Assembly (NCBI GenBank): GCA_947488865.1
Contig: CANLCB010000007.1
Coordinates: 1 to 43,880, forward strand
Length of the DNA stretch: 43,880 bases
Reading direction: 5' to 3'
DNA from: Deltaproteobacteria bacterium
GTDB lineage: Bacteria; Bdellovibrionota_C; UBA2361; OMII01
Positions 18,794 through 40,455 of the stretch are shown here, one piece after another. Position 1 is the first letter of the stretch. Each line of letters opens with the position of its first letter. The notes beneath the pieces were generated by a model. The model searched no databases. It had not been told where the DNA came from and was given only the letters and a program-made list of their open reading frames with translations. The translations under genes and the position numbers were made by a program.

Positions 18794-20332
18794 TTACTCC
18801 CACTCAATGGTTGCCGGTGGCTTGCTGGAGATATCCATGACCACGCGGTTAACGCCCTTCACCTCGTTTACGATGCGATTGCTAACGCGTCGAAGAAGCG
18901 GCTCAGGAAGGAACGCCCAGTCGGCGGTCATTCCATCTTCGGAAGTTACGGCGCGAAGCGCGATGGTCTCGTCGTATGTGCGACCGTCACCCATCACTCC
19001 CACGCTACGTACAGGGAGAAGCACGGCGAAGGCCTGCCACAACCCCACGTACAACCCTTCAGCTCGAATCTCCTCAAGGAAGATATGATCAGCCTCTTGA
19101 AGGGTCTTAACGCGTTCTGGGGTAATCTCGCCAAGAATACGAACGGCGAGACCTGGTCCAGGGAACGGCTGTCGTTGCAGGATCTCAGTTGGCATATCCA
19201 ACTCGCGACCCAACACGCGAACCTCATCCTTGAACAACTCACGGAATGGCTCAATGAGAGAGAACTTTAAACGCTCCGGAAGACCGCCCACATTATGGTG
19301 AGTCTTGATGGTAGCCGATGGTCCACGAACCGATACACTCTCAATCACATCTGGATAGAGCGTCCCCTGCACGAGGTGCGTAACCCCCTCAAGGGACTTC
19401 GCGTGCTCCTCAAATACCTCGATGAAAACACGGCCAATAATCTTTCGCTTCTGCTCAGGGTCCGTAACGCCCCTAAGCTCTCCGAGGAATCGCTCTCGAG
19501 CGTCCACGAGCGTTACGTTGAGTTCAAGCTCCTTGAGGCGAGCCATTACGGACGCGGCCTCGCTCTTTCGCATCAATCCAGTGTCAACGAAGAAACAGTG
19601 AAGTCTCTCGCCCAAAGCTTTCGATACGAGAACGGCAGCAACTGTAGAATCGACGCCACCCGAGAGCGCGCAAATAGCTTGCGCCGGCGCTGGCACTTGC
19701 TCAGCGATACGCTTTACGCTCTGCTCAATAAAGTTACCAGGCGTCCAATCTGGAGCGCACTTCGCGATGTTGTATACGAAGTTCTTCAGAAGGGTCTTGC
19801 CTTCTGGGGTGTGAACCACTTCTGGATGGAACTGCAAAGCGTGTATTGGCTTCGATGTGTGGTAGATCGCCGCGATCGGCGCGCCACTGCTCGACGCCGA
19901 GCACGCGAACCCCGTAGGGAGTTTCTCAACGTGATCACCGTGACTCATCCACACCGCAAGACGCTCGCCTTTCTTCCAGTTCTCGAAAAGACCAGCCGAA
20001 GCCTCGACAGTTACGGTCGATGGACCGTACTCACGAGCGGCCCCTCGTCCAAGAGCTCCGCCACCGTGATGGGCGAGAAGCTGCATGCCGTAGCAAATAC
20101 CCAAGGTCGGAAGATTCGTATTAAGCCACGCCGTGTTGAAGGCGGGAGCGTCACTATCCGTCACGCTTGCGGGACCACCTGAAAGTATGAGCCCTTTAAC
20201 CTTTGAGAGATCAACAGTCGAAGGGTCGATAGTGCAAGGTCGTACCTCGCTGTACACATTAAACTCACGAACTCGGCGGGCGATGAGCTGGGTATATTGA
20301 GAACCGAAATCGAGGATGAGAATCACAGGCAC
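18794..20332 (-). CDS. guaA: GMP synthase (glutamine-hydrolysing)
   Basis: [57 protein letters not shown]-terminal KPPATIEWE. Confidence 0.98.
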
Positions 20333-20495: not shown

Positions 20496-21392
20496 ATGAA
20501 TCGACGCACGACCAGATTCGCACTCGCCCTCCTCTGCCTAGTTAGCCCCTTATCGGCCTCCAGGGCGGACTATATTCTCACCCGCGCCTCAGGGGTGTAC
20601 CAACACACCAACGGCTCTACAAAGGTTATTCTGGGCACTAAAAACGACGCTCAGGGACTCTTCATCGTCGACGGCCCCGCGATATCCCCTCAGGAATTTA
20701 ACCTCGAAACCATGAGTCCAGAGGGCGCTCGCCACGTCTTCATTAAGTTCGACGCGCAAGCTCAACCACCAACCTATTCAGAGATCATCATCAACGACAA
20801 AACGTACAAGGTCTCAGGAAATCTGACCTTGAGCGTCGGTCCCAAGACACTCGTGAGTGTCGACAACAACAACCCCTATTTGACGGTGGTTACCGAAGGT
20901 AGCCAAGCGAACGAAGCTCCTTCGATTCTCGGATTTTCCGGCCTCAATGAGATCGTGAAAGGAAGCGGCACGATGGCGACAGCTCTCGCCGCTAATCAAT
21001 TGAACGCTGACGTCGCCAAAGTGATTCGCCCTTACGCGGTCGAGAACAACGAACTCACCCTAAACGGCAAGCCGGTCACCAACTCACTCATCGGTACGTT
21101 TATCAAGCCCGAGAGCGAGTGCCTAAAACCTAACACCGTAATCCTCTTGGCGAACGAGATGACGAAGATTCAAACGGCAAAGAGCGAAGACGAGCGAATC
21201 AAACTCCTCGATCAGTCAATGAAAGACGCGAAGAAGAGCTCTCGGCTCCAAGAGAACCTCGTACTCAAAACAGATCCAAAATCCGTCATTCTCCTCGATA
21301 TACGAGAAAAGAACGTGCGAGAGATGCACGCCATCGCGCTCAAAGCTTCCAAGGAGAAGATTTGCGTTATCTCGGACCTCGGCGGGAAATAA
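20496..21392 (+). CDS. Secreted hypothetical protein
   Basis: 298 aa with Sec-type signal peptide MNRRTTRFALALLCLVSPLSASRA; no recognised domain. Confidence 0.7.
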   Translation: MNRRTTRFALALLCLVSPLSASRADYILTRASGVYQHTNGSTKVILGTKNDAQGLFIVDGPAISPQEFNLETMSPEGARHVFIKFDAQAQPPTYSEIIINDKTYKVSGNLTLSVGPKTLVSVDNNNPYLTVVTEGSQANEAPSILGFSGLNEIVKGSGTMATALAANQLNADVAKVIRPYAVENNELTLNGKPVTNSLIGTFIKPESECLKPNTVILLANEMTKIQTAKSEDERIKLLDQSMKDAKKSSRLQENLVLKTDPKSVILLDIREKNVREMHAIALKASKEKICVISDLGGK

Positions 21393-26787: not shown

Positions 26788-27219
26788 ATGAGATGGCGAA
26801 CCATCGGACTCTCCTGGATGCTATGCGTCTTCATCGCGGCACGATTCGCGTTCGATGTAGTACCACGCACATCGACCTATGCGTCGATATCAGCACTCAC
26901 CCCCTACGATGAATTAGATCCTGAGAGCATCCTGGCATCAGGCGGACGGATTCCCATCGCCTGCTCAGACCAATCAACACTCGAACTAATCTCTGGCGTT
27001 TCACACACCCTAAGCGAGGAATTGCTGCAAGCGCGAAACTCTATACAGAGACTGACGCGTCGAATTGGAGAGCGTGCGGCACTCCTCACTATCCATGGAG
27101 TTGGCGAAAAACGGGTCGAGCAACTGCTGACCTACTTCGATCCTGGAGCAACGTGCTCAAAAACCCTTCCCTACGCCCCCTTTAAACCTCAACCTAAAAG
27201 AGGACCTCCAGTGCGGTAA
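26788..27219 (+). CDS. Membrane-anchored mini helix-hairpin-helix protein (ComEA-like HhH)
   Basis: 143 aa with hydrophobic N-terminus WRTIGLSWMLCVFIAARFAFDV; C-terminal HhH motif ALLTIHGVGEKRVEQLLTYFDPG. Confidence 0.6.
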   Translation: MRWRTIGLSWMLCVFIAARFAFDVVPRTSTYASISALTPYDELDPESILASGGRIPIACSDQSTLELISGVSHTLSEELLQARNSIQRLTRRIGERAALLTIHGVGEKRVEQLLTYFDPGATCSKTLPYAPFKPQPKRGPPVR

Positions 27220-27433: not shown

Positions 27434-28522
27434 ATGCGTATCCTTGCCATCGCCACGACCGTAGACAAACCAGAGGCCCACATCTTCTCGGGACTCGCTC
27501 GCTCTGGCGTTCAGGTCTGGATTATCGCGACCCCCCTCCCTGAGCATCGCGAACTACTCACCTCAAGTGGCGTTCACATCATAGACCACTCGTTCACTCA
27601 TCGCTTTGATCGCACGGGCATAAAGCTCATACGAAAGATCGTACGCGACAACTCAATTGACGTTGTCTACGCGCTTTCTAATCGAGGCCTCTCATGTGCC
27701 GTTCTCGGGTTGATGAATCAAAAAATCCCAATCGTCGCGTATCGCGGCACGATGGGACATCTAAGCCGGTTCGATCCAACAGCGTGGCTAACCTACCTCA
27801 ACCCTCGCGTCAAAAAGATCATGTGCGTATCACAGGCGGTACAAAAATACCTCCTAGATCTAGGCATCAAGGAAGACAAAGCGGCTCTCGTATACAAAGG
27901 ACACGACATTGAGTGGTATCAAACCCCTCCACCGCCCCGAAGCTCTGAAGGGATCCCTGAAGAAGCCTTCGTGGTGGGATGCACCGCTGTCATGCGACCA
28001 GTAAAAGGAGTCGATGTGCTCATCGAAGCCGTCGCCTCACTTGTAAAGGAACTTCCAAACCTTCACCTTCTCCTTGTTGGCCCAATCAAAGATCCAACCA
28101 TCGACAAACTCCTGAAAGAGTTCCCCGAAACAAACCGCCTGCATTTAACCGGATACAGAACCGACGCGACTCGCCTTGCTCGACTCTCAGATGTCGTTGT
28201 CATGGCCTCGAAGACCCGCGAAGGATTCCCGAAATCGGTCATCGAGGCGATGTCTCAAGGAGTACCCGCCATTGTTTCGGCCGTTGGAGGAATGCCCGAG
28301 CTTGTCGATCAGGGAAACGCTGGAATTGTTGTACCTCCAAGCGACGTTCCCGCCCTGGCCAACGCGATTCGACAGCTGTATCAGAATCCAGAACAAGCAA
28401 AGACCCTCGGACGGCTCGGGCAAAGACGAATCGTCGAGGTATTCAATATCAACACCACAATCCAAAAGACTCGAAACATCCTGGACTCTCTCACAAAGAG
28501 AAACGTGACGATTCAGAAGTGA
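27434..28522 (+). CDS. Glycosyltransferase family 4
   Basis: VGCTAVMRPVKGVDVLIEAVASL, MASKTREGFPKSVIEAMSQGVPAIVSAVGGMPELVDQGNAGIVVPPSDVPALA. Confidence 0.9.
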   Translation: MRILAIATTVDKPEAHIFSGLARSGVQVWIIATPLPEHRELLTSSGVHIIDHSFTHRFDRTGIKLIRKIVRDNSIDVVYALSNRGLSCAVLGLMNQKIPIVAYRGTMGHLSRFDPTAWLTYLNPRVKKIMCVSQAVQKYLLDLGIKEDKAALVYKGHDIEWYQTPPPPRSSEGIPEEAFVVGCTAVMRPVKGVDVLIEAVASLVKELPNLHLLLVGPIKDPTIDKLLKEFPETNRLHLTGYRTDATRLARLSDVVVMASKTREGFPKSVIEAMSQGVPAIVSAVGGMPELVDQGNAGIVVPPSDVPALANAIRQLYQNPEQAKTLGRLGQRRIVEVFNINTTIQKTRNILDSLTKRNVTIQK

Positions 28523-28525
28523 CAA

Positions 28526-28540
28526 GGTCGCGGAACGACC
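28526..28540. other. Small hairpin 3' of the GT4 gene
   Basis: GGTCG-cggaa-CGACC just after the 28522 stop; followed by only a short T-rich stretch (CTATTTC). Confidence 0.4.
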
Positions 28541-28647
28541 TATTTCGCAACAACTCCAAGGGGGTAGAGATATCCACATGACGCCTCTGTGTCCCTCGGC
28601 GCCCATAAGTGTTGACTATCGCCTCAAGCCAAATTAACGTTTGGACA

Positions 28648-28698
28648 TGATGTTCAAGTATTCCGTCCATCATCATCATTTCCATCATCGCGCCTAAC
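28648..28698 (+). CDS. Candidate His-rich leader peptide / mini-ORF (16 aa, MMFKYSVHHHHFHHRA)
   Basis: ATG ATG TTC AAG TAT TCC GTC CAT CAT CAT CAT TTC CAT CAT CGC GCC TAA; 6 His codons of 16; lies 62 nt before the next gene's ATG. Confidence 0.4.
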
Positions 28699-28759
28699 GC
28701 GATCGCACCCCCTTTTCTCATTACATTTTTGTTTTTTATTTTCCCTCTCCGAGGATTTT

Positions 28760-29803
28760 ATGTTCCGTGACCTTCTAGCAAAAACTATCCGCTCTGACAT
28801 TACCGCGGCAGCTCAGTCCCCAAACATCCTTGCCGCCGCAAAGACAGCCACCCTTGAAGATGGATCTTGGGAATCTCTCACAGGCCCTCAACGAGACGCG
28901 AGACAAGTGAAACGTTTCGCAAGCTCCCTGGATCGCTTCTCAGAACTCGACTGCGCCTCGCTTTTAGTCCCTCAAGTACCCATCACCTCTCAGGTAGTGG
29001 ACATCACGTCTCGACTAATCGCGTTGGACAAGCCAAACGCGACCAACCCAACGCGTATCGAACTTCTAAAATCAGTCGGTCAAAAGATTCAAGAGGGGCG
29101 CCCTCTGGAGATGGTCGCGTCTCTGTGCCTTGAAAAAGGCCCGGGACTGCGTAATGGGAAATTGAATTGGTTTCTCTACGGTCAACGAGGAGAGACTCCT
29201 TCCACCCTCGCCACGGAGGCCTCAATCAAGGGATGGGGCACCGTCAAACGAATCCTTGACACAATCAAGTATCCCATAAACGTGAGATTCCTGCTGGGAG
29301 ACCTCGATTACGCGATCGTGGACGGATGTAGTTCCTGGTGCAACCCGGGATGGGAAGCGATCCTGACTACAGACACCGATCGCATCGTACGGGAAACACA
29401 ACAGCTCGCGGACAAATTCTTCGGCACAGAGAGAAATGTCCGGGTTGTGAAATGGTCCTCGATCTACTCGCCAAATGAGATCGTCGCCCAGCTTGCTCGC
29501 GCGGAGACGCTCATCTCTCCTGAACAATCTCCCCAAATAATGAGGGGTAGTTTTGAGATATACAAGCGCCAATGGGGGTACGCGTCGCTCGCTCGAAAAA
29601 TTGGAATCGACGAGAAAACACTCGATACCTTTATCATCGGTGACGTGCAAAGAATGGCCGCTCAATACCGGGTGGAGGCGAATTACGTTCAACTGTATAA
29701 CGGAATCCAATTGTGGTGTGAGGCCACGCCAAATCCTGGTTGGCCGATCGCGCTCTCTAACTTCGATCGAGCAGGATATGTTCCATCATTAATTATGGAG
29801 TAG
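28760..29803 (+). CDS. Hypothetical protein, no family recognised
   Basis: 347-aa ORF with GAGG Shine-Dalgarno-like sequence upstream (ccGAGGattttATG); its stop at 29803 nearly abuts the MccF-like gene start at 29806. Confidence 0.8.
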   Translation: MFRDLLAKTIRSDITAAAQSPNILAAAKTATLEDGSWESLTGPQRDARQVKRFASSLDRFSELDCASLLVPQVPITSQVVDITSRLIALDKPNATNPTRIELLKSVGQKIQEGRPLEMVASLCLEKGPGLRNGKLNWFLYGQRGETPSTLATEASIKGWGTVKRILDTIKYPINVRFLLGDLDYAIVDGCSSWCNPGWEAILTTDTDRIVRETQQLADKFFGTERNVRVVKWSSIYSPNEIVAQLARAETLISPEQSPQIMRGSFEIYKRQWGYASLARKIGIDEKTLDTFIIGDVQRMAAQYRVEANYVQLYNGIQLWCEATPNPGWPIALSNFDRAGYVPSLIME

Positions 29804-29805
29804 TC

Positions 29806-30756
29806 ATGACTAAGAAAACTTATACGATCGGTGTTATCGCCCCATCGCTCCCGAGTGAGGGCAAACGAAAAGAAAAAGTCCAAGCGGCCATAGCGCATCT
29901 CGAGAAATCGGGGCACACGGTACTAACCGGTAAAAGCGCTTATGCCATCACCGGATACAAGAGCGCCTCTGCCCAAGAACGCGCGGCGGAGCTTCTCACG
30001 TTTCTCACAGACCCGAGCGTAGACATGATTGTGGCGACTACCGGCGGATACAACAGCAACGAGATCTTAGAGTTTCTAGACCTCTCGAAGATTGCACCGA
30101 CACAAAAGACTTTTGTGGGGTACAGCGACTGCACCACTCTCTCCATGGCATTTCAACGCTACAATGTCTGCTCCTCAGTATGCGGACCAATGCTCGTAGA
30201 CTACGTGGATTACCCGGAATGCTTCGAGCGACTTTTCTCGGCTCTCGATGGCACACCGCGCCTCCTGACAAATGAGTCTGAATCGTGGGAGTCGAGCGAA
30301 AAAGGACGTTTTTCCATGGCCCCAATGCGACGCCTGACCAACAAGAACTCGTCGGGCGTGGGAAGCGCTCTCGCCGCTAATCTTAGCACCCTCTGCTTAA
30401 TGCTTGGCACTCCCTACCTTCCCTCGTTTTCAGAGAGAGTCCTCTTTCTTGAGTACGATCGGGAGGAACAAACCGCGCTCCCTTCGGTCGAGCGCTTCTT
30501 GTGGCAGCTCCGTCAGAACGGCGCGTTACAAAACCTCGCTGGCCTTGTTTTTGGCGCTCTGCAACCCAGCGTCGCCGCCGAGGAAACGGATACGGACACC
30601 ATTGAACGCATTCTTGGAGAGGTAACCGCGGAATACACCTATCCTGTAATTTATAACGCTCAATTCGGACACATCTATCCAAGCTGGGTGATCGTAAACG
30701 GGCAAGAGACTCGAATATCTGAGGACGGTTTGAGCGTCAGTTTGAGCGTCAGATAG
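29806..30756 (+). CDS. Peptidase family S66 (LD-carboxypeptidase / MccF-like)
   Basis: IGVIAPSLPSEGKRKEKVQAAIAHLE; nucleophile motif FVGYSDCTTLS; FLEYDREE; NAQFGHIYPSW (GHxxP). Confidence 0.88.
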   Translation: MTKKTYTIGVIAPSLPSEGKRKEKVQAAIAHLEKSGHTVLTGKSAYAITGYKSASAQERAAELLTFLTDPSVDMIVATTGGYNSNEILEFLDLSKIAPTQKTFVGYSDCTTLSMAFQRYNVCSSVCGPMLVDYVDYPECFERLFSALDGTPRLLTNESESWESSEKGRFSMAPMRRLTNKNSSGVGSALAANLSTLCLMLGTPYLPSFSERVLFLEYDREEQTALPSVERFLWQLRQNGALQNLAGLVFGALQPSVAAEETDTDTIERILGEVTAEYTYPVIYNAQFGHIYPSWVIVNGQETRISEDGLSVSLSVR

Positions 30757-39281: not shown

Positions 39282-39468
39282 GTGCGGAAATCGCACTACT
39301 CGTCACTTCACCATCCGTATCACTCCGATAGAGCCTGAACAGGCTCCAGTTCGGTATGAGAGCGTTCATCCGTGGCACGAAAACCCGTTTGAACTGGAAT
39401 GAGTGTTAAGCAACCCTTATTGTTTACCCCAGTCAGCACTATCCGACAACAATAAGGATATAAGGGTT
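39282..39468 (-). promoter_or_regulatory. Structured tilS-ftsH spacer / ftsH leader with several inverted repeats
   Basis: Inverted repeats read directly: GTGCG-gaaat-CGCAC (39282-39296); GAGCCT-gaac-AGGCTC (39331-39346); TCCAGTTC...GAACTGGA (about 39346-39398); CCTTATTGTT (39415-39424)/AACAATAAGG (39448-39457), competing with AACCCTTAT (39412-39420)/ATAAGGGTT (39460-39468). Confidence 0.5.
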
Positions 39469-39480
39469 CCGACCGTTTAC

Positions 39481-40455
39481 CTAGATTTTTTGACCCTCTG
39501 GAGGGCTCAAGAACAGCCCCCCTTTCCGCATTTCGAGGGTTCGCCCCCCACCTACATCGACCCGACCATTCTCGACCCGCAGAAGATTCAGAAGCACCTC
39601 GGCTCGCCCCTGGCTAATGGTATGCCCCAAAAGAGGAGTAAAGAGGGTTTGGGCAACTCTCCACTGAACGGCAGGATGGGCGGAATGAAGCTCAGTCCGG
39701 CATCGATTAACCCATTCGGGAGCATCGAACTCGATGGCACCCACCGAGCCCGCCACCTGCTCAGCCATCCAGCGCAAGGCATCGCAATCCTCGGCGAGGG
39801 CCTGGGCCCGCTCCGCCAAGCTCCATACAATGGAGGCATCAAACTCCGACTCAATAAAAGGAATCACCCTCTTTCGGATACGATTCCGAACCAAAGAGGT
39901 GTCCTCATTCGTAGGGTCTTCCACAAAAAGTACGGATTGCTCGACCACATACTCCTCAATCTGAGCCCGGGTTATGTCCAGCAAAGGTCGCAGACACCCC
40001 CGCTCCTCATCGGAATCTTCGATAGTATTCAGCTCCTTATTGGCGATCAGCCGCATGAGCAGGGTCTCGGCGACATCGTTCGCCGTATGAGCGGTAACGA
40101 TGTGATGCAGCCCCTGCTCTCGCCTAAGCTGTTGGAAGGCATCGTACCTCCCCCTTCTCGCCCACGCCTCCATGTTCTCCGTGACGGGCCGCGCGCCAAG
40201 GGTCCGAATATGGCAATCGACTCCAAGCTTTTTACACTGAGCAGCCACAAAGGCCGCGTCACTTGCGCTGTTGGGACGAAGGCCGTGATCGACGTGACAG
40301 ACTTCGAGATGGAGAGATTTAAGCCGCCGCACGTTGGAAAGGGCGTGCAGAAGCACTGAGGAATCCTTCCCTCCGGATACAGCCACCAAGAGCCTTGAGC
40401 CGTCTGGAACTCTCTGAGAGAGCGCCGTGCGTATGGAAATTCGTCTGCGAGCCAC
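39481..40455 (-). CDS. tilS: tRNA(Ile)-lysidine synthase
   Basis: RLLVAVSGGKDSSVLLHAL, VCHVDHGLRPNSASDAAFV, HHIVTAHTANDVAETLLMRLI, RPLLDITRAQIEEY. Confidence 0.94.
   Translation of the reverse strand: MARRRISIRTALSQRVPDGSRLLVAVSGGKDSSVLLHALSNVRRLKSLHLEVCHVDHGLRPNSASDAAFVAAQCKKLGVDCHIRTLGARPVTENMEAWARRGRYDAFQQLRREQGLHHIVTAHTANDVAETLLMRLIANKELNTIEDSDEERGCLRPLLDITRAQIEEYVVEQSVLFVEDPTNEDTSLVRNRIRKRVIPFIESEFDASIVWSLAERAQALAEDCDALRWMAEQVAGSVGAIEFDAPEWVNRCRTELHSAHPAVQWRVAQTLFTPLLGHTISQGRAEVLLNLLRVENGRVDVGGGRTLEMRKGGLFLSPPEGQKI

Follow-up and report, generated by a model that had tools for sequence, protein, structure and literature searches.

A His-rich mini-ORF in a conserved leader of a rare two-gene cassette from an uncultured bacterial lineage

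In E. coli, the genes of the his operon are preceded by a leader whose short ORF contains a run of His codons. A His-rich mini-ORF was also noticed in a 43,880-nt stretch of bacterial DNA (hereafter the window; contig C7 of a 1.47-Mb assembly, 70% complete), raising the question of whether it belongs to a regulatory leader, encodes a peptide product, or arose fortuitously from a CAT repeat. The relevant features of the locus are as follows.

28612..28640, plus strand: putative promoter TTGACT-N17-TAACGT (TTGACT at 28612-28617, TAACGT at 28635-28640); hexamers and spacing are the same in G009, a genome of the same genus
28647..28697, plus strand: His-rich mini-ORF of 16 codons, MMFKYSVHHHHFHHRA and stop (ATG at 28647, TAA at 28695-28697); the G009 counterpart is MTYFSSVHHHLHHRS and stop
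28662..28704, plus strand: near-invariant leader block TCCGTCCATCATCATC..TCCATCATCGC.CCTAACGCGATC, covering codon 6 through the stop codon together with the hairpin's 3' arm
28673..28750, plus strand: C-rich, G-poor 78-nt stretch (C/G = 4.5), candidate Rho-loading (rut-like) leader
28687..28703, plus strand: hairpin ATCGCG-CCTAA-CGCGAT with a 6-bp stem, mini-ORF stop in the loop
28726-28742, plus strand: T-rich tract TTTTTGTTTTTTATTTT within the C-rich, G-poor stretch
28744..28754, plus strand: mini-hairpin CCUC-UCC-GAGG, which would occlude the GAGG Shine-Dalgarno sequence (28751-28754) of the 347-aa gene; identical in G009
28760..29803, plus strand: gene (ATG at 28760) for a 347-aa protein without sequence family, with a predicted class-Ic aminoacyl-tRNA-synthetase-like (HUP/Rossmann) fold
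29806..30756, plus strand: S66 serine peptidase, MccF-like, with GGYNSN, GYSD and FGHIYP motifs

The mini-ORF and its flanking elements

The mini-ORF was present as given in the preliminary description, except that the start codon quoted there (28648) was one base too far to the right. His accounted for 6 of the 16 codons, four of them consecutive, and for 5 of 15 in the G009 counterpart. In a census of ATG-initiated ORFs of 8-40 codons in a 144-kb sample of this genome (n = 1134), no other than this mini-ORF combined five or more His codons with an HHH run. The earlier caveat that such a CAT run can arise by chance was thus weakened by this rarity, together with the retention of the leader in a second genome. 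The 347-aa gene could not start at the mini-ORF, as the two are out of frame (113 nt apart). An antisense reading on the minus strand (ATGATGATG...), which stops after 15 codons in G009 and runs on in the window, was dropped by eye.

Transcription had been proposed to start almost at the mini-ORF from TTGACT and a weak -10-like hexamer. TTGACT, the 17-nt spacing and TAACGT were all kept in G009. TAACGT matches TATAAT at only 3/6 positions, and the consensus promoter scan did not report a promoter here. As the gap between the -10-like hexamer and the mini-ORF ATG is 6 nt in both the window and G009, transcription may start at, or within one base of, the ATG, which would make the mini-ORF leaderless.

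The local fold at the stop-codon hairpin gave a z-score of -2.98. The G009 hairpin retained five of the six pairs with one lost, and the whole G009 leader folded no better than shuffled sequences (z = +0.80). Stems of at least 6 bp over the stop codon were found for 3.6% of the mini-ORFs in the window, and are hence not rare by themselves. The scan of the plus strand from 28500 to 28900 found no terminator-like site, in agreement with the earlier remark that no canonical terminator precedes the T tract. Fold prediction found no alternative terminator/antiterminator folds of the leader, and an Rfam search gave no match above chance.

Distribution of the cassette

Among 12 genomes of the family, one close relative of the 347-aa gene was found, in G009 (80% identity; record CAIXKI010000053.1), and within the order one distant relative was found, in G027 (30% protein identity). 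Copies of the cassette were thus present in 3 of the 383 genomes searched. No copy of the 347-aa protein was found in plasmids, phages or viral contigs. In all three copies, an S66 peptidase gene comes next; the three peptidases belong to one subclade, those of G009 and G027 being 84% and 44% identical to that in the window. The G009 cassette sits elsewhere in the genome behind other upstream genes, and only from the promoter-like hexamer onward do the window and G009 resemble each other. The promoter, the leader and the gene pair therefore constitute a single accessory unit. The presumed tie between the element and the downstream gene pair was borne out by this conservation at another site. 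Loss of the ORF or the His run in close relatives, named in the preliminary description as an outcome that would refute it, was not seen in G009, the sole close relative having the genes.

Conservation of the leader

The G009 mini-ORF differs in length by a single 3-nt change and keeps the frame, the stop, the His codons and the hairpin. The block of about 40 nt from codon 6 is near-invariant between the window and G009, while identity at 4-fold sites is as low as 48% and 51% in the two genes, which shows selection at the nucleotide level and hence that the block is functional. When 44 genomes of the phylum were searched with the second half of the block, allowing at most 3 mismatches, it was found only in the window genome and G009.

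The conservation begins at codon 6 and does not end at the stop codon but also takes in the hairpin's 3' arm. The five to six changed codons of the mini-ORF are all nonsynonymous with no synonymous change, and codons for the same residue share the third base as well. In contrast, about 62% of the changed codons in the 347-aa gene (about 114/184) are synonymous-only, and of the codons for an unchanged residue in the two cassette genes 57-61% are identical. If the mini-ORF evolved like the 347-aa gene, the chance of finding no synonymous-only codon among five to six changed ones was estimated at <1%. Constraint was therefore seen on the nucleotides, whereas selection on the peptide was not supported. 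That the length change is in frame says little in favour of coding, because slippage in a CAT repeat yields multiples of three anyway. The weakest point of this analysis is its depth, namely two close sequences and one distant one.

The distant leader, upstream of the G027 gene, contains the following ORF.

L029 9063-9004, minus strand: leader ORF of 19 codons, MTSIFPPFLDLILHRLSCR and stop

Codons 14-15 of this ORF encode His-Arg, just like those of the window mini-ORF, but this is its only His and no His run is present. At the end of the mini-ORF lies a 6-bp hairpin (ATCGAC-TCTCCT-GTCGAT), in which two stem pairs differ from those in the window on both arms yet still pair. An ORF, a hairpin and a C-rich leader are thus retained ahead of the gene pair despite the 30% protein identity. 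The G027 leader may be homologous to that of the window, although neither a short ORF nor a hairpin is unusual on its own. As the His run is absent from G027, His sensing cannot be general to the cassette, in conflict with the notion of a general His sensor.

The 78-nt stretch starting at 28673 is the compositional extreme of both strands of the window (43.9 kb), corresponding to 0.006% of windows of that size. The C/G ratio of the leader was 4.0 in G009 (top 0.08%) and 3.1 in G027 (top 0.3%), each ranked within its own contigs. A short leader ORF followed by C-rich, G-poor and unstructured RNA is the usual setting of Rho-dependent attenuation. Rut-like composition alone does not prove the action of Rho; termination of this type perhaps takes place at the leader.

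The two cassette proteins

The 347-aa protein had no family match in Pfam, NCBIfam, PHROG, PADLOC or the PDB sequences. An AlphaFold2 model was built from three sequences (pLDDT 65.7, pTM 0.63). Its Foldseek comparison with the PDB returned the isonitrile synthase PIsnA, TyrRS and many cyclodipeptide synthases (CDPS), with probabilities of 0.91-1.00 for the top 19 matches. The probabilities for PIsnA, TyrRS and CDPS were 0.99-1.00, but with E-values of 0.015 or worse and TM scores up to 0.50, for a model of pLDDT 65.7. A second, low-confidence model of the G027 protein, which shares the same alignment and is not independent, also had CDPS, PIsnA, TyrRS and PvcA among its better matches. On these models, the 347-aa protein probably has a class-Ic synthetase-like fold.

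Sequence membership of the CDPS or DIT1/PvcA enzyme families is not indicated. There was no Pfam match to PF16715 (cyclodipeptide synthase) even at E 10, the GxSxxN signature was absent, and the hhalign probability was 1%. Likewise, no Pfam match to PF05141 (DIT1/PvcA) was obtained, the PAFPxKSxN and DGxVFxDL signatures were absent, and the hhalign probability was 0.4%. The profile comparison is uninformative here, since the PvcA and CDPS profiles were not significant to each other either and the sequences were too few. The 635-aa protein of G005 with a weak PvcA match, considered as an intermediate, showed no similarity to the 347-aa protein. The gene pair proved less orphan than thought earlier, as a class-Ic synthetase-like fold was predicted for the 347-aa protein and the partner was assigned to S66 as an MccF-like peptidase.

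The nearest solved structures of the S66 protein were BA_5613 and MccF proteins, and it was closer to the MccF type than to LD-carboxypeptidase; in the tree it grouped with the MccF type only weakly (70/55). Family searches found no MccB/ThiF-like adenylyltransferase or exporter in the cassette, and neither defence (PADLOC) nor PHROG families for it.

Several other ORFs were recorded in these genomes. A 475-aa protein in G009 (L040:1480-2907, contig C147) carries PF16715 (E 3e-28) and PF00497, family-3 solute-binding (E 3e-14); it is the only PF16715 match in the 44 phylum genomes and lies in the same genome as the second cassette copy. The 635-aa protein of G005 (L043:1204-3111, minus strand, contig C48) has a short C-terminal piece of PF05141 as its sole Pfam match (residues 491-537) and may be a large protein distantly related to isonitrile synthases. 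In the same genome, which belongs to the genus of the window, L012:1456-2445 (contig C58) encodes a second MccF-like S66 peptidase (GGFNS, FGHTYP), directly after a gene resembling lysyl-tRNA synthetase by eye. Within the window, a 143-aa ORF upstream of a glycosyltransferase gene (26788-27219) has no Pfam or PHROG family, and three ORFs of about 300 aa (19295-20182, 20496-21392 and 39403-40359) have no Pfam match. As the reverse strand is open over 19295-20182 and 39403-40359, those two may not be genes.

Possible roles of the leader

The element is a true leader, conserved together with the rare cassette that it precedes. We consider that the mini-ORF belongs to a cis-acting leader with translation-coupled attenuation, perhaps of the Rho type, at a probability of roughly 0.45. 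Transcription would begin near the mini-ORF ATG, and a ribosome would read about 16 codons, ending inside the small hairpin. The G-poor, C/U-rich leader would then be exposed, leading to premature, probably Rho-type, termination and to closure of the CCUC/GAGG Shine-Dalgarno hairpin. Alternatively, the leader would be passed. Expression of both genes would in this way depend on how the ribosome fares on the mini-ORF. Histidine is a possible signal. This reading draws on the hexamers, mini-ORF, hairpin and Shine-Dalgarno hairpin preceding the gene pair at the other site in G009, on the near-invariance of about 40 nt with constraint past the stop, on the C/G extremes of three leaders, and on the ORF, hairpin and leader kept in G027. 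The weak -10 hexamer, the absence of a terminator/antiterminator fold from the predictions, the z-score of the G009 leader and its hairpin short of one pair argue against it.

The strongest competitor, although itself somewhat unlikely, is an untranslated regulatory RNA or DNA element, with the ORF being an accident of a CAT repeat in a conserved 5' UTR. The exclusively nonsynonymous codon changes with preserved third bases, the conservation running from codon 6 past the stop, and a 3-nt length change such as triplet slippage would give without coding all fit this explanation. It accounts less well for the ATG, frame and stop kept in both genomes, the constant 6-nt gap between the -10-like hexamer and the ATG, and the G027 ORF with His14-Arg15.

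A classical his attenuator, in which ribosomes stall on the His codons at low charged tRNA-His and the synthetase-like enzyme perhaps consumes His-tRNA, is improbable. The six His codons (five in G009), four of them consecutive, and the predicted fold, common to enzymes that use aminoacyl-tRNA, would suit such a mechanism. The missing terminator/antiterminator pair and the single His in the G027 ORF speak against it, as does the failure to find hisG, sought as a comparison, in the window genome (assembly 70% complete). Moreover, the downstream genes encode a synthetase-like protein and an S66 peptidase and not the his pathway, and the his-type attenuation suggested in the preliminary description thus found little backing. 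We regard as still more doubtful that the mini-ORF encodes a ribosomally made precursor peptide which the synthetase-like enzyme would modify and for which the S66 protein would provide self-immunity or processing, in the style of microcin C. The order of peptide, hairpin, enzyme and MccF-like peptidase, the GGYNSN/FGH motifs and the structural proximity to MccF are in line with it. However, the cassette has no MccB/ThiF-like enzyme or exporter, the peptide ends in Ala/Ser and not in Asn, no conservation at the peptide level was seen, and no such peptide occurs in G027. Its 15-16 residues also fall where the yield of microcin C, which decreases from 11-residue peptides upward, is reduced (PMC6495379).

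Cyclodipeptide synthases, which adopt the HUP fold of the class-I synthetase-like proteins, make amide bonds with aminoacyl-tRNAs as substrates (PMC2922099). A similar use of aminoacyl-tRNA by the 347-aa protein would give an aminoacyl-tRNA-sensing leader a purpose. As a long shot, the leader ORF might read the aminoacyl-tRNA used by a new branch of synthetase-like enzymes (His in the window and G009; e.g. Leu in G027), and the MccF-like peptidase might then process what the enzyme makes. If the leader did sense His-tRNA, attenuation would act on a consumer of aminoacyl-tRNA and not on an amino acid pathway. A leader-ORF-like element is linked to a rare cassette (3/383 genomes), whose enzyme has a predicted CDPS/isonitrile-synthase fold and stands beside an MccF-like peptidase. 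Should the fold prediction hold, the cassette would represent a new family, small and testable, in the chemistry of tRNA-linked peptides or natural products in an uncultured lineage.

Comparison with known systems

The leader resembles that of the E. coli his operon in having a short ORF with a His-codon run upstream of genes, but differs in the absence of his biosynthetic genes and of a terminator/antiterminator, in the stop codon inside a hairpin, and in the loss of the His run in G027. With tnaC-type Rho attenuation it shares a short ORF and, between this and the genes, a C-rich, G-poor leader; no similarity to TnaC was seen here, and Rho is suggested by composition only. The 347-aa protein differs from CDPS and DIT1-PvcA isonitrile synthases in the lack of significant PF16715/PF05141 matches, of their motifs and of the usual tailoring partner, while the predicted fold and an invariant Ser (S121) at the first strand are alike. 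The microcin C operon (mccA-hairpin-mccB, mccF), with a hairpin terminator between mccA and mccB (PMC6495379), differs from the cassette, where the enzyme is of a type other than the ThiF/MccB adenylyltransferases, no transporter is present and the peptide is without a terminal Asn; the two are alike in combining a tiny ORF, a hairpin, an enzyme and an MccF-like S66 peptidase.
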